Of a stretch of 64,000 nt of DNA, positions 7,301 through 58,896 are shown one piece after another (position 1 is the stretch's first letter; every line of letters begins with the position of its first letter). The position numbers and the translations under genes are program-made. The DNA is from Paracoccaceae bacterium (GTDB lineage Bacteria > Pseudomonadota > Alphaproteobacteria > Rhodobacterales > Rhodobacteraceae). A model generated the notes under the pieces. It had not been told where the DNA came from and ran no database searches. It saw only the letters and a list, made by a program, of their open reading frames with translations. Location: NCBI GenBank assembly GCA_027486345.1, contig JAIXPH010000036.1, forward strand, positions 62,001 through 126,000, read 5' to 3'.

Positions 7301-7317
7301 CCGTAACGGCGGATAGA

Positions 7318-7501
7318 GGACCGACGCGGGGCTGTCCTGTGGACAGACCCGCCGGTCCGATTGCGGCTGAGGCAACGAAGCCGCAAGGGGTGGTCAGCAG
7401 TCCCGAGGTTTCAGGCACGGGTCGTGACCGCCCGGCGGGTGCGCTCTTTGCGCGCCCGTCCCCCGCAGGGCGGACACGGCCCGTGCGTTGGGCGCACGGG
7501 C
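7318..7501 (+). repeat. Structured intergenic repeat, copy A
   Basis: The 5' hairpin (7318-7358) runs from GGACCG to CGGTCC with apex GTCC-TGT-GGAC. The middle is a GC-rich CGCCCGGCGGGTGCGC...GCGCGCCCG module. The 3' hairpin has perfect 9-bp arms GCCCGTGCG (7479-7487) and CGCACGGGC (7493-7501) with loop TTGGG. The order matches copies C, D and E. Confidence 0.7.
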
Positions 7502-7616
7502 GGGCATGGGGCAACCGTTGCGATGCGCGCGGGTCACTTGCCCCGCGCGAGTGACCGGGGGGGCCGCGCTTCCCTGTCGGTCCTCTGTCCCCTACCGGTC
7601 CCCAGCGGCCCGTCCG

Positions 7617-19214: not shown

Positions 19215-19411
19215 TCCGATAGAGACTCCGCCTTCATCCCGTGGCCACCGGCCAGGGGCGGGGAGCCCCGCCCCGACAGTTGGACTATATCTGGCGGTTG
19301 AACGCTGGCAAGCCCCTCAAGCCATGGTGGGACGTTCAACTGCGCGGGTGCAGGTTTAGTGCCTGTTAATGACGCAGGCGTGACAAGGGCCTTACTGGTC
19401 GAAGGGTGCAA

Positions 19412-19615
19412 GGTGAAACCAAACAGTCCGGGGGACTGTTTGGTTTCACCGCTCTAGGTCCGCGCGCGCACCGTCGGGGTGGGCGCTTCATGCGCACGCC
19501 CCGGTGGGGGTGATGAGCGAACAGAAATCGTCCAGTGGACGATTTCCGCGAAGAACGCCCGGCCCGTGGCCGGGCCGGGAGGGCGTGCGCGGACCGGGCC
19601 TTTGGGGCCCGGTCC
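19412..19615 (+). repeat. Structured intergenic repeat, copy C (with extra hairpin)
   Basis: The 5' hairpin is a perfect 18-bp stem, GGTGAAACCAAACAGTCC (19412-19429) with its complement (19433-19450), apex GGG. A middle GC-rich module follows (TCGGGGTGGGCGCTTCATGC). An additional perfect 10-bp hairpin is inserted, GAAATCGTCC-AGT-GGACGATTTC (19524-19546). The 3' hairpin is GGACCGGGCC (19591-19600)/GGCCCGGTCC (19606-19615) with loop TTTGG. Confidence 0.75.
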
Positions 19616-19633
19616 CATCCTGAGCGCGTGCGA

Positions 19634-19668
19634 CAAAGAAAGGGCGGCTCCTTGCGGAACCGCCCGTC
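19634..19668 (-). terminator. Terminator of the cox operon
   Basis: Read on the minus strand, GGGCGGTTCC and GGAGCCGCCC form a near-perfect stem around GCAA, followed by TTTCTTT. It lies about 25 bases after the coxM stop. Confidence 0.8.
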
Positions 19669-23935: not shown

Positions 23936-24283
23936 GGCGGCTCCGGGTCGGAAAAGACGGATGGTGGGCTTGGGCGAAACTCTATGCTCGTGCGGGATGG
24001 CAAGGGTATTGTCCCTTGGTCGCGTTATGTTTTTGGGGATATAGCGAGACCTAGCGAAACGATAGGGATTGCTTCACCTCATTGGCCGAGGCCATCGCCG
24101 AGGTCACGCGATGCCGCTTGCCCCATCCCGGTCGGGGGCCCCGAAGGCCCCCGGCCAGCGCCCGTCCCGCCCATGGCGGGCGCTGGCCTCTGCCGGTTTG
24201 GCGGAACACGAGAGCGGGGATGTGGTCGCGGCGGGCGGGGACAGGCAGTGCCTTTCCTTGTCCGCCCGTTGCCTAGGTCGCCC
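23936..24283. other. Intergenic region between the cox operon and the hybrid kinase gene
   Basis: This 348-base gap should contain the cox promoter (about 23960-24070, locally more A+T-rich, with CGCTATATCC on the minus strand) and repeat copy B (24128-24200). A further imperfect GC-rich hairpin (24235-24274) lies just after the kinase stop and could terminate that operon. No gene is visible. Confidence 0.5.
24133..24188 (-). repeat. Structured intergenic repeat, copy B (short)
   Basis: On the minus strand, a 12-bp stem GGCCAGCGCCCG/CGGGCGCTGGCC (24153-24164 with 24177-24188 on the plus strand) precedes an 8-bp hairpin (24133-24140/24146-24153) with apex TTCGG. This resembles the TTTGG 3' hairpin of the other copies. 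The TCC-NNN-GGA hairpin is missing, so this is a partial or divergent member. Confidence 0.5.
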
Positions 24284-35788: not shown

Positions 35789-36340
35789 ATGGTCACAAGG
35801 CGTGGGTTTTTCGGCGTTGCGGGCGGTGCGGTGGTGCTGGCCGGGTGCGCCAATGGCGTGGGCTCGAACGGCGCGGGGCAGATCGACGCGCGGGTCGATG
35901 CGACGCGGGATTATCTGTTCAGCCGCTATCCCGGCACGCGCGATCTGGCGGCACGCTCGGCGGGGGTGCTTTACATGCCACTCGTGACCGAGGCCGGGCT
36001 GTTCTATGGCGGGGCCTACGGGCGCGGCGCACTGCGCATCCGGGATGTGACGGTGGATTACTATTCGGCGACCAAGGCCTCGTTCGGGTTGCAGGTCGGC
36101 GCGCAGCAATATGCCCATGCGCTGTTCTTCACGAATGAGAATTCGCTGGCCGAATTCCGCCGCTCTGCCGGTTGGGCCGCCAGCGGCGACATCCGCTACG
36201 CCACGCCCGAAGAAGGTGCGAGCATCGGCAAGCAGACCAATGAGATCGACACCGGCGTTCAGGCCTTTGTCTTTGGCCAGCAAGGGCTGATGGCGGGCGT
36301 GTCGCTTGCGGGCGTGAAGTACACGCGGATCATTCCGTAA
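35789..36340 (+). CDS. SYLF/Ysc84-domain lipoprotein
   Basis: The 183-residue product starts with MVTRRGFFGVAGGAVVLAGC, a twin-arginine-like signal ending in a lipobox at Cys20. The remaining part fits the SYLF (Ysc84) lipid-binding domain: ARSAGVLYMPLVTEAGLFYGG, DYYSATKASFGLQVGAQQYAHALFF (~92-116) and GVQAFVFGQQGLMAGVSLAG. The role is unknown; homologues bind phospholipids. It is followed directly by repeat copy D. Confidence 0.87.
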   Translation: MVTRRGFFGVAGGAVVLAGCANGVGSNGAGQIDARVDATRDYLFSRYPGTRDLAARSAGVLYMPLVTEAGLFYGGAYGRGALRIRDVTVDYYSATKASFGLQVGAQQYAHALFFTNENSLAEFRRSAGWAASGDIRYATPEEGASIGKQTNEIDTGVQAFVFGQQGLMAGVSLAGVKYTRIIP

Positions 36341-36361
36341 CATCCTGAAAACTGGTACAAG

Positions 36362-36497
36362 GCACGCCCAAACTCTCCGGGGGAGCGTTTGGGCGTGTCG
36401 CCGTTAGGTCCGTGTGCAGACCGCCGGGATGTGCGCCCTTGGGCGCGCAGCCCGAGGGGGCGGGCTGCGCGCGGACCGTGGCTTTGGGCCACGGTCC
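36362..36497 (+). repeat. Structured intergenic repeat, copy D
   Basis: The 5' hairpin is ACGCCCAAAC (36364-36373)/GTTTGGGCGT (36387-36396) with apex CTCC-GGG-GGAG. TAGGTCCGTG and the GC-rich middle module follow, with arms GCGCAGCCCG/CGGGCTGCGC. The 3' hairpin is GGACCGTGGC (36473-36482)/GCCACGGTCC (36488-36497) with loop TTTGG. It starts 21 bases after the SYLF gene stop, in a convergent gap. Confidence 0.75.
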
Positions 36498-36543
36498 GAC
36501 ACCAACCGTTGCGTTTCGGCAATACGTCCTGAAACGACTGCGC

Positions 36544-37416
36544 TTACCCGTTCTTCCTCAACCGCCGGATCAGGCTCGACGTGTCATTCCGCCCGCCGCC
36601 CATTTGCTGCACGTCCTTGTAGAACTGATCCACCAGCGCCGTCACGGGCAGGCTCGCGCCCAACGCATCCGCCGTTTCCAGACAAATCTTCAGGTCTTTC
36701 CGCATCCAATCGACGGCAAAGCCGAAGTCGAACCGCCCCTCCAGCATGGACTTGTGGCGGTTGGCCATTTGCCATGATCCGGCGGCACCCTGAGAGATCA
36801 CCTCGACCACCGCAGCCCCATCCAGCCCCGCCTTCTCGCCAAAGGCCAGCGCCTCGGACAGGCCCTGCATCAGGCCCGCGATGCAGATCTGGTTCATCAT
36901 CTTGGCCAGTTGCCCGGCCCCCGACTCACCCAAGCGGCGGCAGATGCGGGCATAGGCGGCGATCACGGGTTCCGCCCGGTCATAGTCGGCCTGCGCGCCG
37001 CCGCACATCACCGACAGAACGCCATTCTCGGCCCCCGCCTGCCCGCCCGACACGGGCGCATCGACAAAGCCCAGCCCCTGCGCGGCCGCGACCCCGGCCA
37101 ATTCCCGCGTCACCTGTGCCGACACCGTTGTGTGATCTACAAACAAAGCACCCGCCGCCATGCCCGCGAATGCGCCCTGATCCCCCAGACAGACCGCGCG
37201 CAAATCATCGTCATTGCCGACGCAGGCAAAGACGATCTCTGCCCCCGATGCCGCCGCCGCAGGGGTTACAGCCGCCGCACCGCCATGCTTGGCCACCCAC
37301 GCCTCGGCCTTTGAAAACGTGCGGTTATAGACCGTCACCTGATGCCCCTTGGCCACCAGATGCCCGGCCATCGGCCCGCCCATCACGCCCAGACCCAGAA
37401 ACGCCACCTTTGCCAT
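36544..37416 (-). CDS. NAD(P)-dependent hydroxyacid dehydrogenase (tartronate semialdehyde reductase/HIBADH family)
   Basis: The 290-residue enzyme has AFLGLGVMGGPMAGHL at the N-terminus, FVDAPVSGGQAGAENG (~117-132) for substrate binding, and catalytic lysine region GQLAKMMNQI (~171). It is closer to 2-hydroxy-3-oxopropionate reductases than the family member at 3466-4383. No glyoxylate-pathway neighbours support a specific substrate. It is divergent from the penicillin acylase gene. Confidence 0.86.
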   Translation of the reverse strand: MAKVAFLGLGVMGGPMAGHLVAKGHQVTVYNRTFSKAEAWVAKHGGAAAVTPAAAASGAEIVFACVGNDDDLRAVCLGDQGAFAGMAAGALFVDHTTVSAQVTRELAGVAAAQGLGFVDAPVSGGQAGAENGVLSVMCGGAQADYDRAEPVIAAYARICRRLGESGAGQLAKMMNQICIAGLMQGLSEALAFGEKAGLDGAAVVEVISQGAAGSWQMANRHKSMLEGRFDFGFAVDWMRKDLKICLETADALGASLPVTALVDQFYKDVQQMGGGRNDTSSLIRRLRKNG

Positions 37417-43992: not shown

Positions 43993-45480
43993 TCAGCGCC
44001 GCAGCGTGGCGGGCACCAGAAAGACCAGCAGCGCCAGTGTTTCCAAGCGGCCAACAATCATCAGCAGTCCCATCGCGACCTTGACCGCGGGTGTCAGCGC
44101 GGCAAGCGGGATGGGCGATTCCGCGGCCAGCGCCGCCAGATGGCCCGTCGTGGTCAGGGCCGAGAGCGTGAGGATCAGCGCCGGTTCGAACCCCTGCCCC
44201 AGCAGCGTCAGTCCCGCCGTGCCCGCCGCGATGGACAGCGCATAGAGCATGAAGAACACCCAGGCTGCATAGGCCCCGTCGCGGCGGCGTCGCTGCCCGG
44301 CGCTGCCGATGGAATTGGGATGGATCAGCCTGTCCATCTCGCGCGTGCCGTGGCGGAACAGGGCATCGACGCGCAAGAGCTTGACACCGCCCGCCGTCGT
44401 GGCGACCCCGCCGCCGAGGATCGCCAGACCGGCCAGCACCAGTCCCGGCGTCTCCAGCCCCGACCACAGCCGCGCGGTCTGCCAATCGGCCGAGACAAAG
44501 CCCGTGGTGGTCAGAAAGGAGATCGTCGTGAACACCGCCCCCCACAGCGCCGCCAGCGCCGGGCCCAGCCCCTGCCCTTCGGTCGCGGCGACGGCATGGC
44601 GCAGGAACAGCACCGCCGCCACGAAGGCGGTGATCGCCAGCGCAAGGCGCAGTTCCGGATCGTGCCGCCACGGCCCCACCTCCGAACGCAGTGCAGCCCC
44701 CGGCCAGAACCGGCGGCTCAGCGCCAGCACCAACACCATCAGCACCATCGCCTCGGCCAGGCGGCCGGGCACGCCCGCCGCCGCCGTGATCCCGGAGGTG
44801 GACACCGACGAGAGCGCCAGCACAAAGGCGGGCAGCCCCTCACCGCCCGCAAGGATCAACCCCAGCCACAGCGCCAGCGTCACGCCCGCATAGACCGGCA
44901 GCATCTGGCGCGCGTGCCGCCGCACCCGCGATGCGGGGTCAACCGTCCCGGTGAACCAATAGGGCCCGTCGTCACGCTGGCCCGGCACGCGGCCCGTGAT
45001 CACCTCGGTCCCGCCGAGATTGATCGGGGCGAGGATGGCCGCCGCCGCGACAAGGATGACATAGCCCCCCATCCACCCCACCAGCGCCCGCCACAGGTGC
45101 AGCGTGTCCGGCACCTTGGCGGGCTCCATCAGCGTGGCGCCAGTGGTGGTAAAGGCCGAGATCATCTCGAACCACAGATCGCCCCAGGGCGCATCGGTCA
45201 GCACCTGCGTCAATGGCAGGGCCATCAGCACCGGCAACAGCAGATAGGCCCAAAGCAGCGCCGTCAGATGCGCGCGGGTCAGATCGCGCGGGCGACGCCC
45301 CGTCACCGCCAGCGCGACAAAGCCCAGCAGCACCAGCAGGATCACGGCGGAATAAAAGAATGACCGCGCGACATGGTGGTCCCCCGTGACCGTGGCATGG
45401 GCGGCGGGCAGCAGCATGGAGAGCGCGACCAGACCGGCCATCTGCACCAGAAGCGGCAGGTCGCGCAGCCAGATCCGCAT
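43993..45480 (-). CDS. trkH: Potassium uptake protein TrkH
   Basis: The 495-residue integral membrane subunit of the Trk K+ system has repeated selectivity-filter-like segments, e.g. FTTTGATLMEP, SVSTSGITAAAG, FLTTTGFVSADWQ and LSALTTTGHLAAL. These are the four P-loops of the Ktr/Trk family. Its start codon shares one base with the trkA stop (TGATG), so trkA and trkH are co-translated. Confidence 0.95.
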   Translation of the reverse strand: MRIWLRDLPLLVQMAGLVALSMLLPAAHATVTGDHHVARSFFYSAVILLVLLGFVALAVTGRRPRDLTRAHLTALLWAYLLLPVLMALPLTQVLTDAPWGDLWFEMISAFTTTGATLMEPAKVPDTLHLWRALVGWMGGYVILVAAAAILAPINLGGTEVITGRVPGQRDDGPYWFTGTVDPASRVRRHARQMLPVYAGVTLALWLGLILAGGEGLPAFVLALSSVSTSGITAAAGVPGRLAEAMVLMVLVLALSRRFWPGAALRSEVGPWRHDPELRLALAITAFVAAVLFLRHAVAATEGQGLGPALAALWGAVFTTISFLTTTGFVSADWQTARLWSGLETPGLVLAGLAILGGGVATTAGGVKLLRVDALFRHGTREMDRLIHPNSIGSAGQRRRRDGAYAAWVFFMLYALSIAAGTAGLTLLGQGFEPALILTLSALTTTGHLAALAAESPIPLAALTPAVKVAMGLLMIVGRLETLALLVFLVPATLRR

Positions 45481-46856
45481 CAGAAGAAGTCGATGCTGAC
45501 TTGCAAGAGACGCTCCACCTCGGGCACATCCTTGGTCAGGGCAAAGATCGCCAGCACATCGCCCGCCTCGATCCGCGTGTCGCCGGTGGGTTTCAGCACG
45601 CGGTCGCCCTTCATCAACCCGCCGACCAGCACGCCTTCGGGGAATTGAACGTCCCGGATCAGCCGTCCGGCGAGCGGCGAGGTGGAAAGGACCTGCGCCT
45701 CGATCACCTCGGCCTCGGCATCGCCGATGGAGTAGATCGCGCGCACCTTGCCGTGCCGGATGTGGCGCAGGATCGAGGACACCGTGGTGGCGCGCGGGTT
45801 GATATAGGCGTCGATGTCCAAAGCCCCCATCAAAGGGGCGAGCGTCGGATCATTGACCAGCGCGATGGACATGGGGCACCCGGCCTGCTTGGCGCGCACG
45901 GCCACAAGCAGGTTGGTCTTGTCATCATCCGTCACCGCAAGCACGGCATCGGCGCGGTCGATGGAGGCCTCCATAAGGATGTCCATGTCCATCCCGTCGC
46001 CGTTCAGCACGATGGTCCGTTCCAGACTGTCCGCCGCCTTTTCCGCCCGCGCGCGGTTCTTCTCGATGATCCGGGCGCGCACGCGGTCTGTCCGGGCCTC
46101 CAGCGCGCGTGCCACGGCCAGACCCACATTGCCGCCGCCGATGATGACGATGCGCTCCTGCTTCTTGGTCTGCTTGCCGAAGATGTCCAAGGCGCGATTC
46201 ATGTCCTCGGAATGGGTCAGGACGTAAATTTGATCCTCGGCAAAGAGTTGGTCCGAAGGATCGGGGGCGAACAACCGCCCGCGCCGCCGCACGCCGACCA
46301 CAATGGCGCGCAAGGACGGAAAGAGGTCATTCAACTGCCGCAGGGGCGTGTTCAGCACCGGGCAATCGGCGTCCAACTGGATGCCCAGAAGCTGTGCCTT
46401 GCCTGCGAAGAAGGTTTCCGTGTCAAAGGTGGACGGCGCGGCAAGCCGCTGCAACGCCGCCTCGGCCACCTCCCGCTCGGGGCTGATCACAACGTCGATG
46501 GGCAGGTGATCCCGGCGATAAAGGTCGGAATAGATCGCATCCAGGTAGCTTTGCGCCCTGAGCCGCGCGATCTTGCGCGGGATGGCGAAGATGGCATGGG
46601 CCACCTCGCAGGTGACCATGTTCACCTCGTCGGAATGGGTGGCCGCGATGATCATGTCGGCATCGCGCGCCCCGGCCTTTTCCAGCACGTCCGGGTAAGA
46701 GGCGAAGCCGACGATGCCCTGCACATCCAGCACATCGGTGGCCCGGCGGATCAGATCGGCGTTCTGGTCCACCAGCGTGACGTCGTTCCGCTCGCCGGAA
46801 AGCTGGCGGGCGATCTGCCACCCGACCTGCCCCGCGCCGCAGATGATGACCTTCAT
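45480..46856 (-). CDS. trkA: Trk system potassium transporter regulatory subunit TrkA
   Basis: The 458-residue cytoplasmic regulator contains two RCK-N/RCK-C repeats. The NAD-binding glycine motifs are VIICGAGQVGWQIA at the start and IVIIGGGNVGLAVARAL (~231-247). Length is identical to E. coli TrkA from the ATG at 46856, which has GGAGAG upstream; an in-frame ATG at 46886 would add ten residues. It gates TrkH in response to nucleotides. Confidence 0.95.
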   Translation of the reverse strand: MKVIICGAGQVGWQIARQLSGERNDVTLVDQNADLIRRATDVLDVQGIVGFASYPDVLEKAGARDADMIIAATHSDEVNMVTCEVAHAIFAIPRKIARLRAQSYLDAIYSDLYRRDHLPIDVVISPEREVAEAALQRLAAPSTFDTETFFAGKAQLLGIQLDADCPVLNTPLRQLNDLFPSLRAIVVGVRRRGRLFAPDPSDQLFAEDQIYVLTHSEDMNRALDIFGKQTKKQERIVIIGGGNVGLAVARALEARTDRVRARIIEKNRARAEKAADSLERTIVLNGDGMDMDILMEASIDRADAVLAVTDDDKTNLLVAVRAKQAGCPMSIALVNDPTLAPLMGALDIDAYINPRATTVSSILRHIRHGKVRAIYSIGDAEAEVIEAQVLSTSPLAGRLIRDVQFPEGVLVGGLMKGDRVLKPTGDTRIEAGDVLAIFALTKDVPEVERLLQVSIDFF

Positions 46857-47177
46857 GGCGCTCTCCGGCTGTGTCTGACGGCGCAAGGTGTCGCAGATGG
46901 CGAAGATTGGCGCAAGGGTGTGGGGTGATTTTGGCAGGAAGGGGGCAAGGCGCGCCAGTCAGGACTGGACCGTGGCCCAAAGCCACGGTCCGCGCCCGCA
47001 CCGCCCCCTCGGGGCGGGCGCATGAAGCGCCCACCCCGGCGGTTCGTGCACAGACCTACCGGCGGCAGCTTGAAACGCTCCCCCGGAGCCTTTCAACCCG
47101 CCTTGCTCTTACGGATATTAGCCCCAATAGCGCCAAAATGTAGATCCTGACACCGTCGCAAACCCATGAGAGGAAAC
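46857..47177. other. Intergenic region trkA/ntrX
   Basis: This 321-base gap holds repeat copy F (46967-47096) and, between it and 46857, the likely trkA promoter (no clear boxes). The A+T-richer part at 47105-47160 lies just after the ntrX stop. No credible gene is present. Confidence 0.55.
46967..47096 (-). repeat. Structured intergenic repeat, copy F
   Basis: On the minus strand the order is as in copy D. The 5' hairpin has TTGAAA and TTTCAA outer arms (47070-47096) with apex GCTCC-GGG-GGAGC after strand reversal. Then come TAGGTCTGTG and a GC-rich middle (CCGGGGTGGGCGCTTCATGC). The 3' hairpin is GGACCGTGGC/GCCACGGTCC (46967-46991) with TTTGG. This 3' hairpin is identical to that of copy D. 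It follows ntrX in the direction of transcription. Confidence 0.75.
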
Positions 47178-48593
47178 TCACTCCTCGGTCAGGTCATCCT
47201 CATCGTCATCCCCGCCCTTCACGCCGCGGCCCTTGGCGGTGGTGACGACGCCCAGCGATTTCAGCTTGCGGTGCAAGGCGCTGCGTTCCATGCCGACGAA
47301 ACTGGCGGTGCGGCTGATGTTGCCGCCGAAGCGGTTGATCTGCGTCAGCAGGTATTCGCGTTCAAAGACCTCGCGCGCCTCGCGCAGCGGCAGGGTCGCC
47401 ATCGCACCGCCAAGGACCAGACGCCCGTTCTCCGCGCCCGGAGCCTCTTGCCCCGGCAATTCGCGCGCCTCAATCGGGCCGGTGCCATCGCCCAGGATCA
47501 GCACGCGTTCGATCACGTTGCGCAATTGCCGCACGTTGCCGGGCCAGGACATGGTCTGCAACATCGCCTCGGCATCGGGCGAAAGGCCGCGCAAGGGCAG
47601 ACCTTGGGTGCGGTGGAACATGTCGATGAAATGGCGGGTCAGTTCGGGGATATCCTCGCGCCGTTCCTCAAGGCTTGGCACCGTGATGGGGACGACGTTG
47701 AGCCGGTCATAAAGCTCTTGCCGGAACCGCCCAGCCGCAATCTCCGCGCGCAGGTCGCGTGTGGTCGAGGAGATGACCCGCAGGTCAACCCGCACCTTGT
47801 CGGAGCCACCCGCGCGGGTGAACTGCTGTTCCACCAACACCCGCAGGATCTTGGATTGCGTGCCCAGCGGCATGTCGGCCACCTCGTCAAAATAGACGAC
47901 GCCGCCATGCCCCTGTTCCAACAGGCCTTTTTCCACTCCGCGTTCAGCGGTTTCCCGACCGAAAAGCACCTCTTCCATCCGCTCCGGTTCGACCGTGGCG
48001 GAAGAGACAGAGATGAAGGGTGCCGCGGCCCGCGCCGAATTGCCGTGGATAAAGCGCGCGGCCAGTTCCTTGCCAGAGCCAGCCGGGCCGGTCAGCATGA
48101 CGCGACCGTTGGATTTGGTGACCTTTTCCAACTGGCTTTTCAACGCCTTGAAGGCCGGACTTGCCCCGATCATGTCCGATTGCGTCACGTCCTTGCGGCG
48201 CAACTCGCTGTTTTCGCGGCGCAGACGGCTGGTCTCCATCGCGCGGGATACGACGACCATCAACTGATCAATATTGAAGGGTTTTTCGATGAAATCGTAG
48301 GCACCCTGCTTGATCGCCGCCACCGCGATTTCGATGTTGCCATGGCCCGAGATGATGACCACCGGCACATCGGGGTTGTCGCGCTTGACCGTTTTCAGGA
48401 TGTCGATCCCATCCATCCGGGAATCTTTCAGCCAGATGTCGAGGATCATCAGCGCGGGTGGCTCTGCGTTGATCTCGGCCATGCAATCATCGGAATTGCC
48501 TGCCAGACGAACCTGATAGCCCTCGTCCTTCAGAATATCGGCGATCAGTTCGCGGATATCCCTTTCGTCGTCAACGATCAGAATGCTGCTCAT
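47178..48593 (-). CDS. ntrX: Nitrogen/redox response regulator NtrX
   Basis: The 471-residue regulator has a receiver (D52 in LMILDIWLKDSRMDG), an AAA+ domain with Walker A GPAGSGKE and Walker B VVYFDEVADMP, and a Fis-type HTH (NISRTASFVGMERSALHRKLKSLGV). The loop that carries GAFTGA in sigma54 activators reads GRETAERGVEKG, so direct sigma54 activation is doubtful. The start overlaps the ntrY stop (ATGA). NtrYX responds to nitrogen and redox cues in alphaproteobacteria. Confidence 0.95.
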   Translation of the reverse strand: MSSILIVDDERDIRELIADILKDEGYQVRLAGNSDDCMAEINAEPPALMILDIWLKDSRMDGIDILKTVKRDNPDVPVVIISGHGNIEIAVAAIKQGAYDFIEKPFNIDQLMVVVSRAMETSRLRRENSELRRKDVTQSDMIGASPAFKALKSQLEKVTKSNGRVMLTGPAGSGKELAARFIHGNSARAAAPFISVSSATVEPERMEEVLFGRETAERGVEKGLLEQGHGGVVYFDEVADMPLGTQSKILRVLVEQQFTRAGGSDKVRVDLRVISSTTRDLRAEIAAGRFRQELYDRLNVVPITVPSLEERREDIPELTRHFIDMFHRTQGLPLRGLSPDAEAMLQTMSWPGNVRQLRNVIERVLILGDGTGPIEARELPGQEAPGAENGRLVLGGAMATLPLREAREVFEREYLLTQINRFGGNISRTASFVGMERSALHRKLKSLGVVTTAKGRGVKGGDDDEDDLTEE

Positions 48594-57077: not shown

Positions 57078-58256
57078 ATGAATGGCGCAGATACCGCCTG
57101 GATACTCATGGCCACCGGTCTGGTCCTGTTCATGACCTTGCCGGGTCTGGCGCTGTTCTACGGCGGCCTCGTGCGGGCGCGGAATGTGCTGTCGGTGTTC
57201 ATGCACTGCTTTGCCATCGCCGCCCTGATGAGCGTGCTGTGGCTGGCCTTGGGCTATTCCATTGCCTTCGGCGGGCCGGGGGCGCTTTGGGGTGGTCTGG
57301 GCAAGGCCTTCCTGAACGGCGTCACCGTGGACAGCCTGACCGGCACCCTGCCCGAACTGCTGTTCTTCGCCTTTCAGATGACCTTTGCCATCATCACCCC
57401 CGCACTGATCGTGGGCGCCTACGTCGAGCGCGTGGGCTTCGGCTTTGTCCTGCTGTTTTCCGCCCTGTGGATGCTGGTCGTCTATGCCCCCGTGGCGCAT
57501 TGGGTCTGGGGTGGCGGGATGCTGGCCGATGGCGGCATCTTTGGCGACACCGGCGTGCGGGATTTCGCAGGCGGCATCGTGGTGCATGAAACCGCCGGTC
57601 TGGCCGCGCTTTTGCTGGCCTTCCTGCTGGGACCGCGCAAGAACAAGCACACCCCGCCGCATTCGCCGGGCATGGTGATGATGGGGGCGGGCATGCTTTG
57701 GGTCGGCTGGTTCGGCTTCAACGGCGGTTCGGCCTTGGCGGCGAATGGCCAAGCCGCGCTGGCGGTGACGGTCACGCATCTTTCGGCGGCAGCGGCCTCG
57801 CTGACCTGGATCTTGTGGGAGCGGGTGAAGTTCGGGCGCACCACCCTCGTCGGTCTGGTCACTGGGACGATTGCGGGTCTGGCCTCGATCACCCCGGCGT
57901 CGGGCTATGTCTCGCCGATGCAGGCGCTGGTGATCGGCGCGGTGGCGGGCGTGCTGTGCCAAGAGGCGGTGGGTCTGATCCGCAACAAACTTGGCATCGA
58001 TGACACGCTGGATGTCTTCGCCGTGCATGGCGTCGGCGGGATTTTCGGCACCATCATGGTCGCGGTGTTCGGTCTGGGATCATGGGGCGCGCAACTGGGC
58101 GGGCTTGCCGTGGTGGGCGTCTGGACACTGGTGGCGACGTTCCTGCTGGTCAAACTCGTCGGTGCCGTGACGCCCTTCCGCGTGGATGCCGAGGCCGAGA
58201 CGAATGGTCTGGACCTGTCGGTGCATGGCGAGCGGGCCTATGAGCTGAATTCGTAA
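57078..58256 (+). CDS. amt: Ammonium transporter (Amt family)
   Basis: The 392-residue channel has eleven or so hydrophobic segments. It has the family start WILMATGLVLFMTLPGLALFYGGLVRARNVLS (by position, ~7-38), one pore histidine in VAHWVWGGGML, and the second in FAVHGVGGIFG, with the DFAGGIVVHETAG signature. No leader peptide is obvious. The ATG at 57078 follows GGGAGGA. glnK, the usual partner of amtB, is absent here. The upstream dyad suggests NtrC control. Confidence 0.95.
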   Translation: MNGADTAWILMATGLVLFMTLPGLALFYGGLVRARNVLSVFMHCFAIAALMSVLWLALGYSIAFGGPGALWGGLGKAFLNGVTVDSLTGTLPELLFFAFQMTFAIITPALIVGAYVERVGFGFVLLFSALWMLVVYAPVAHWVWGGGMLADGGIFGDTGVRDFAGGIVVHETAGLAALLLAFLLGPRKNKHTPPHSPGMVMMGAGMLWVGWFGFNGGSALAANGQAALAVTVTHLSAAAASLTWILWERVKFGRTTLVGLVTGTIAGLASITPASGYVSPMQALVIGAVAGVLCQEAVGLIRNKLGIDDTLDVFAVHGVGGIFGTIMVAVFGLGSWGAQLGGLAVVGVWTLVATFLLVKLVGAVTPFRVDAEAETNGLDLSVHGERAYELNS

Positions 58257-58271
58257 AGGCGGAAGGAGCAA

Positions 58272-58405
58272 GGTCGTTGACGGGGCTCCAGTGGAGCGCC
58301 GGCAACGACCGACATAGGGCCGCGCCCGACCGCCGGGTGGGTGCGCTTTGCGCGCCCGCCCAGGGGGGCGGTCGGGCGCGGCCCGGGTGCTTTGGGCACC
58401 CGGGC
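58272..58405 (+). repeat. Structured intergenic repeat, copy E
   Basis: The 5' hairpin has GGTCGTTG (58272-58279)/CAACGACC (58303-58310) with apex GCTCC-AGT-GGAGC. The middle stem is perfect over 14 bp, CGCGCCCGACCGCC (58321-58334) with 58367-58380. The 3' hairpin is GCCCGGGTGC (58381-58390)/GCACCCGGGC (58396-58405) with loop TTTGG. It starts 15 bases after the amt stop on the same strand. Confidence 0.75.
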
Positions 58406-58428
58406 AATCCCAAGCGCCGCGTTAAGCC

Positions 58429-58896
58429 TTAAATCCTCGGCCCGTGCAACTCCGCCGCGCGGCGTTCGAACGCGCGCACCACGCGCTGCATGGCATCGTT
58501 GAAGACCACACCGATGATGCCTTGCAGGATCGCGTTGCGGAATTCGAAATCCACGAAGAACTCCACCTCGCAGCCGCCCGGCACATCGCGGAACGCCCAG
58601 GTCGAGCGCATGTGCTTGAACGGCCCGTCCAGATACTCGGTGTCGATCTTCCTGACCGCTGGCCACAAGGTCACCCGGCTGCCGAAACGCTCGCGGAAGA
58701 CCTTGAAGCTGATCACCAGATCGGCCTCCATCACCTCTCCGCTGCCATGTGCCCCGCCCGCGATGGGCGTGCGCGACCTGATCCGCGCGGCGGAATTCCA
58801 CGGCAGGAATTTCGGGTAAGACCCGACATCGGCGACAAGCGCATACATCTGGTCCGCCGTATAGGGCAGCCGCTTGACTTCATGATGGGTCGGCAT
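58429..58896 (-). CDS. COQ10-like START-domain protein (RatA family)
   Basis: The 155-residue SRPBCC protein has the COQ10/RatA signature: [27 protein letters not shown] (by position, ~7-33) and the C-terminal [22 protein letters not shown]. Mitochondrial and alphaproteobacterial homologues bind ubiquinone and aid its delivery. Despite the RatA name in some databases, nothing nearby suggests a toxin role. It is divergent from hpt. Confidence 0.9.

Follow-up and report, generated by a model that had tools for sequence, protein, structure and literature searches.

How do the two arms of a hairpin stay complementary while the sequence of the stem changes from one copy to the next? The question is raised by an intergenic repeat at position 36362 of the window, as we call the whole 64,000-nucleotide stretch of DNA from a Paracoccaceae bacterium analysed here. 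The initial annotation grouped this repeat with five further loci (near 7318, 19412, 24133, 46967 and 58272) into one family with covarying stems and fixed loops, and held that such change implies selection on RNA or cruciform structure. The observation of a multi-hairpin repeat family is real, and we confirm it. Selection on RNA is not the favoured cause of the stem covariation. The loci are probably genus-level, non-autonomous, composite palindromic repeats, REP/BIME- and MITE-like and mobile over evolutionary time. Our verdict is a family mobile, or once mobile, within one genus, which falls outside the definition of a REP and has no known mobiliser.

A blastn search of the window's own genome with positions 36355-36504 returned 40 matches (E<=1), of which the top ten are near-complete copies. 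These ten, including the 36362 and 46967 copies, and the 58272 copy gave the 11 type I copies of a covariance model, R1. In the window it finds four strong copies, a match of 32 bits at 7408-7497 and one of 10 bits at 24131-24191. Three of the strong copies, all type I and all part of the R1 training set, lie at 36356-36515 (plus strand, the copy first annotated, 161.3 bits, E 1.5e-35 in the window), 46949-47107 (minus strand, 145.2 bits) and 58267-58423 (plus strand, 123.3 bits, apex TCC-AGT-GGA). The fourth, at 19407-19634 (plus strand, 99.3 bits), lies outside the training set and is a type I element with an extra core module of about 73 nt. According to a codon-usage gene caller written for this analysis, the 36356-36515 copy is flanked by the convergent genes 35831-36340 (+) and 36544-37416 (-), and the 58267-58423 copy by the convergent 57108-58256 (+, ammonium transporter family, Pfam) and 58429-58896 (-). 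The copy at 46949-47107 lies between the minus-strand genes 47178-48593 and 45480-46856, and that at 19407-19634 between two minus-strand genes.

All six loci hold multi-hairpin repeats of related layout. Four of them, 36362, 46967, 58272 and 19412, form one family at high R1 score, and the other two are diverged relatives. The 7318 locus is a type III sister repeat (7315-7558, plus strand, R1 and blastn), a longer unit with its own 5' hairpin, TCC-TGT-GGA; R1 gives 32.2 bits at 7408-7497, and blastn matches it to six other own-genome loci (L105, L110-L114), with a best E of 3e-85. The 24133 locus (24131-24191, minus strand), an inverted repeat, is weak in R1 (10.4 bits, E 0.77) yet matches own-genome locus L109 on the minus strand (blastn, 74% over 155 columns, E 1.3e-21), and we therefore treat it as a fourth, distant type, type IV. 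Its core stem has arms at 24153-24164 and 24177-24188, and an equivalent of the 3' hairpin, GGGGGCC-TTCGG-GGCCCCC, lies at about 24134-24152. Type III is longer than types I and II, and a GATTGCGGCTGAGGCAACGAAGCC-like left part is common to 7315-7558, L105 and L110-L114.

In the 36362 copy, sequence, folding and alignment define a 5' hairpin (hairpin 1, 36361-36399, plus strand) with apex TCC-GGG-GGA, whose outer stem is nearly private to this copy and whose inner stem is common to other copies. The core (36407-36477, plus strand, alignment and folding) is a long stem GGTCCGTGTGCAG...CTGCGCGCGGACC around an inner GC-rich hairpin, and a 3' hairpin, GGACCGTGGC-TTTGG-GCCACGGTCC, follows (hairpin 3, 36473-36497, plus strand, sequence and folding). 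By sequence, GGACC of hairpin 3 could alternatively pair with GGTCC at 36407, the two pairings being mutually exclusive. Stems and apices are as first annotated. The extent needs correction, since conserved sequence runs past the 36497 given initially to about 36515, with a conserved 3' end ..ACCAACCGTTGCGTT (36498-36515, plus strand, read by eye); in addition, the 46967 copy belongs to the minus strand. The right-end consensus, about AAYCCYRAYCGTTGCGCC, is by eye a short imperfect inverted match to the left ends, GGCGCAACG / GCAAGG. Type II ends read by eye as a short imperfect GGCGCAACG / CGTTGCGCC, and this match is weaker in type I; the ends of the elements are not fixed to the base.

Aligned together, five of the six loci (24133 left out) have a single layout: a TCC-NNN-GGA hairpin, a long GC-rich core stem that encloses an inner hairpin across the aligned loci, and a hairpin with a TTTGG-like loop. 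By eye, type I consists of the 5' hairpin, the core and the 3' hairpin, while type II has a core with a ACGTATACGT-like inner loop and a GATGC-TTTGG-GCATC hairpin, without the 5' hairpin; other copies are type III, odd or shortened. Type I matches are mostly 157-175 nt long and the aligned type II core about 113 nt. Since types were assigned by crude patterns (L286 is labelled II though its sequence reads type I), type switches are taken below from directly seen examples. Some copies have an extra core piece of about 20 nt, CCCCGTTYAGACTCGGCGGGG-like. The module inserted in the 19412 copy (19509-19581, plus strand, by eye and as an inverted repeat) consists of a hairpin GAAATCGTCC-AGT-GGACGATTTC and a second GC-rich hairpin. 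A near-identical module of about 73 nt occurs at a like core position in L046, L279, L318, L332 and L340, in three genomes including that of the window.

The 11-copy alignment bears out compensatory change around fixed loops. Both sides changed at 26 of the 53 predicted pairs, against a shuffled mean of 10.9 and 0 of 500 shuffles as high. The covariation score was 0.361 vs 0.115, and 94.5% of cells pair, compared with 33-49% for slid partners; as the structure prediction used this very alignment, the pairing figures are favoured, but the margin is large. Compensatory change alone is not proof of selection. Template switching between hairpin arms can yield the same: as described in PMC8794818, it can create and mend hairpins, giving compensatory change.

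In the own genome (4.08 Mb), R1 gives 61 matches at E<=1 and 57 at E<0.01, a lower bound, as the window's type III match at 7408-7497 is absent from the list. The family is thus dispersed, as first supposed, and it extends to related genomes: matches at E<=0.01 occur in 12 of 41 genomes (the own one and 40 relatives). These are 10 of 19 same-genus genomes (the own one included) and, in the same family, 2 of 6 genomes, with 1 and 2 matches at best E values of 4e-6 and 2.8e-4; 16 other genomes of the class gave none at this threshold. With a stricter filter, counts are 51 in the own genome, 49 in G016, 47 in G010, 45 in G006, 44 in G013 and 26 in G012, falling to 12 in G008, 10 in G003, 9 in G014 and 1 in G007; separate R1 searches at E<=0.01 gave 55 in G010 and 51 in G016. 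Each of five same-genus genomes therefore has 44-57 copies, and the other members examined have fewer or none. Among 80 named loci, mostly Rhodobacteraceae (1.6 Mb; single regions around relatives of one window protein, best identity 77%, not whole genomes), there was one weak match of 23.7 bits (E 0.017).

Phages and plasmids gave no blastn match to window positions 36340-36530 at E 1e-5, and viral contigs no exact match to one 25-nt hairpin; with these searches empty, a phage or plasmid origin is rejected. A literature search in PMC (subscription journals outside its scope) found no description of this repeat family, which apparently is undescribed within the literature searched.

Gene context was taken from 142 loci of three genomes: 58 own-genome loci and 84 of the 106 G010 and G016 matches, with copies at shared sites counted once per genome and not independent. 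Fifty-six lie between convergent genes, 56 between tandem and 12 between divergent ones, and 18 are unresolved; 112 of the 124 resolved copies are 3' of at least one gene, and in many elements one end is 5-30 nt away from a stop codon. Element-free intergenic DNA in the window is divided almost evenly among the three classes (1820 bases divergent, 2098 tandem and 2006 convergent), so the elements avoid divergent, promoter-bearing spaces. With the own genome taken by itself, convergent copies outnumber divergent ones 25 to 6 (binomial p 0.0009). The spaces beside elements in the fetched loci amount to 4789 divergent, 4321 tandem and 1439 convergent bases, a biased measure from which the occupied spaces are removed.

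Such placement would be expected of bidirectional terminators or read-through barriers preserved by selection, in which the site needs a strong hairpin and any landing element is retained, its identity and orientation being free. The excess of convergent over divergent copies (56 vs 12 of 124) and the 5-30 nt between many element ends and a stop codon agree with this, as does the other short G/C hairpin present at the 36362 site in eight element-free relatives. Against it, the right flanks listed after hairpin 3 read about AAYCCYRAYCGTTGCG, with no U tract, so the initial annotation was right that T-tailed terminators do not explain the repeats; nor were IS ends or coding found, which it had also set aside. 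Some copies are followed by a separate hairpin (e.g. L003, L005), and promoter avoidance alone could give the placement pattern. We thus hold it unlikely that the family is at bottom a set of read-through barriers.

A second reading takes the repeats as a structured RNA family, a 3'-UTR element or sRNA, with stems kept by selection on the folded transcript. It draws on the strong compensatory change around fixed loops, on the position of 112 of 124 resolved copies 3' of a gene and on the apparently switch-like choice of GGACC to pair with GGTCC on either side. Pairing itself offers a test, as folded DNA makes no distinction between G-T and A-C, whereas RNA does. In hairpin 3 (138 copies, 1242 cells) we counted 1213 Watson-Crick, 5 G-T, 8 A-C and 16 other cells, and in hairpin 1 (53 copies, 848 cells) 789, 18, 6 and 35, with 10 of the 18 G-T at one apex pair; the hairpins had been chosen for their Watson-Crick count prior to this tally, which lowers G-T and A-C alike. 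Outside the apex pair G-T is about as rare as A-C, and hairpins 1 and 3 therefore look DNA-like. The core stem (114 copies) differs: its 1692 Watson-Crick pairs are joined by 99 G-T, 13 A-C and 134 other. Its T-G pairs favour the RNA reading and are largely one inherited column; together with the mismatches, between arms far apart, they may reflect either RNA tolerance or an absence of correction. The contrast between the short-loop hairpins and the core stem would agree with template switching between arms that lie close together. The tRNA control for a G-T excess gave 34 Watson-Crick, 2 G-T and 0 A-C in 3 usable tRNAs, which is too small a set, so the G-T argument stands without an in-house RNA control.

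Strand and orientation point the same way. Of the tandem copies in the three genomes, 30 lie on the strand of the genes and 26 on the opposite one, and 15 of the 37 site groups occupied in two or three sister genomes hold elements in opposite orientations. In the window, Rfam gives no family at gathering score except tRNA elsewhere, and the 36362 locus has two sub-threshold hits; a known RNA family is rejected for lack of a gathering-score match at the elements. Since pairing, strand balance (30:26) and orientation turnover (15 of 37) agree, we prefer the DNA-level reading. The initial annotation left a choice between RNA and cruciform; we favour the DNA side, and an RNA family seems to us quite improbable. 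Here the DNA level explains strong covariation better, a warning to searches for new RNAs that rely on covariation alone, and G-T vs A-C counts, strand bias and orientation turnover provide three cheap tests between DNA and RNA.

The outer stem of hairpin 1 is the most variable part of type I: 51 copies have 46 distinct 7-mers. Between non-orthologous copies 2.2-2.6 of the 7 letters are the same on average, irrespective of how similar the remainder of the element is (identity bins holding 1244 of 1253 non-orthologous pairs), where chance gives 2.56, and 40 of the 51 copies lack a non-orthologous partner at 14 or more of the 15 arm letters. The eight same-site pairs in which the rest is about 0.9 or more identical agree at 5.7-5.8 of 7. 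Each type I copy might then carry a private, almost random barcode of 4-7 bp, newly written as a paired inverted repeat at site entry and not taken over from a donor. One outer 7-mer is common to L268, L313, L033 and L046, which occupy more than one site, and for 11 copies a non-orthologous copy does match at 14-15 letters; both findings speak against rewriting, which we judge very unlikely. Old drift of paired, sequence-free positions beside a constrained core also explains the outer stems and is the plainer alternative. Copying from flanking DNA is rejected, because matches between outer stem and flanks within 150 nt showed no excess over the null.

Between sister genomes, sites persist while their contents change. 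The 36362 site is filled by type I in the own genome, by a type II element in opposite orientation in G016 and by a type III element (by eye) in G010. Eight congeners (G005, G006, G007, G009, G013, G015, G017, G018) have the short G/C hairpin there, G006 and G013 being element-rich yet without an element at this site; the neighbouring gene is another one in G002, G003, G004, G008, G011, G012 and G014, and G001 has no orthologue. The 46967 site is a short element-free spacer in four of the seven relatives shown (G003, G008, G012, G014), holds an apparent decayed remnant in G010 and has another neighbour in G006 and G013. Absence at a site could be loss. At the 58272 site, the own genome, G010 and G016 have one common copy in the same orientation. 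Further type switches were seen directly in L269/L321, L275/L104, L058 vs L311 and L279, and L309/L055.

Comparison of flanks among the own genome, G010 and G016 gave 65 site pairs with both flanks matching (weighted flank identity 83.8-92.6%), 22 of them in opposite orientation; together they make up the 37 site groups, of which 15 contain a flip. G000 and G010 have 9 opposite-orientation, both-flank site pairs, where about 1.3 shared sites are expected by chance, a rough paper estimate from window intergenic counts. Type I pairs in opposite orientation (n=5) are 0.777-0.86 identical, unrelated copies having a median of 0.787 and a 95th percentile of 0.882. Same-orientation type I pairs divide into 8 of 17 at most 0.83 identical, in the range of unrelated copies, and 9 of 17 at 0.88 or more. 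In-place inversion is not favoured for the type I flips, as both elements and arms of the flipped pairs differ. It is possible for some type II flips, because 3 of 8 opposite pairs reach an identity of 0.947 or more; type II copies are too uniform to tell replacement from inversion. Element identity and arm letters may disagree: L271/L034 (0.83) and L272/L046 (0.822) have 15 and 14 of the 15 hairpin-1 arm letters in common, and L310/L039, 0.892 identical, only 10. Some sites may therefore show partial exchange rather than whole replacement.

Hairpin 1 in nine same-site type I pairs (not independent, three being one trio) shows 8 compensated double changes, 2 other double changes and 7 single ones; as single changes persist, any correction of the arms is incomplete. 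That the repeats are long dead, neither mobile nor functional today, and owe the likeness of their arms to template switching is highly unlikely: the mending of hairpins described in PMC8794818 and the 8 compensated doubles would suit it, whereas types and orientations differ at the same sites between flanks 83.8-92.6% identical, copies are present or absent between congeners, and core, ends and inner apex sequence are conserved.

We now propose a scheme for these repeats as mobile palindromic DNA. The unit, of roughly 113-175 nt, has the core stem and the TTTGG hairpin, to which type I adds the 5' hairpin. Copies may have been propagated in trans by a recombinase acting on a folded strand. 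The arms of the short-loop hairpins would be kept alike at the DNA level, through template switching, recognition of the folded DNA, or both. Downstream of stop codons, chiefly in convergent spaces, copies would persist since they do little harm there, and they may block read-through from both sides. A lost copy would readily be replaced, or partly overwritten, by another. Within one genus, the family provides a natural case of sites that persist while the palindrome filling them differs, in either orientation.

How do these elements compare with known ones? REPs are given in PMC3733652 as 20-40 bp long, with stems of 8-9 bp (CGTC) and a GTAG or CGTC tag. Our elements lie outside this size range and lack a constant tag: type I reads NTAG ahead of the core stem, the first base varying, and CGTC stands near the left end only in some type II copies (both by eye). 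The CGTC-tagged alphaproteobacterial REPs are intergenic palindromes, mostly between convergent or unidirectional genes and near stop codons; they seem to be without a dedicated transposase, and stems and loops vary within families (PMC3733652). By that account our elements resemble them in placement near stop codons, apparent lack of a dedicated transposase and variable stems, and differ in the unit of roughly 113-175 nt, the several hairpins, the stems of about 10-17 bp and the inverted-repeat-like ends. Enterobacterial RU-1, RU-2 and RU-3 are small mobile intergenic sequences of 103-168 bp, likened to MITEs (PMC2759123). Our family is likewise small, multi-copy, intergenic and MITE-like; by their description there, the nearly private but paired stem and the modular inserts set it apart.

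No mobilising enzyme or transposase for the elements was found in these searches. A RAYT (Y1 tyrosine transposase, PF01797) over the cut-off occurred in none of 13 same-genus genomes (a set that left out G013-G018), 7 of which bear elements; the one sub-cut-off match is in G009, which has no element. A RAYT-linked REP is thus rejected. One right-end pattern, searched in the own genome for an autonomous partner, occurs at 12 places, 11 of them inside known copies, with no clear partner; the lone match outside, G000:C39:57874-57891, could be a remnant or the end of a partner element. No target-site duplication was evident by eye in the 37 site groups.

An insertion sequence does meet the family in G010, where one element sits at the hairpin-1 apex with four right junctions (L312, L314, L315, L316) and a left junction at L356, beside an HNH gene that also neighbours the 19412 copy; the outer stems differ between the five junctions. 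Its protein matches DEDD_Tnp_IS110 and Transposase_20. At E 1e-20 the transposase has one assembled copy in G010 and a partial relative in G013, and none at E<=1e-20 in the own genome, G016, G006 and G012. IS110 as the mover of the elements is not supported, the transposase being found in only 2 of the 6 element-bearing genomes searched. REPs are known as targets of IS: ISPsy8 sits on the symmetry axis of one REP hairpin, and no family contributes more REP-associated IS than IS110 (PMC1525189). The G010 case resembles those described there in the fixed place in a palindrome and in the IS110 family; the target here, unlike theirs, is the apex of a hairpin of about 17 bp, with an outer stem that differs between junctions. 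An agent able to move REP-like DNA in the absence of a RAYT can now be sought, with an IS110-family element targeting the hairpin apex at hand.

Three minor observations remain. Contig C76 of G010 seems to join two different sites through the IS110-family element, probably an assembly collapse. ARAGORN calls a tRNA-Gln(ttg) across the 3' part of the element in L281 / L222 (G016, C379), very likely a false positive. Finally, a short palindrome, GGGTGCGCAATGAATGCGCACCCTA or close to it, adjoins L047, L053, L269, L275, L321 and L337, and looks like a separate intergenic repeat family.
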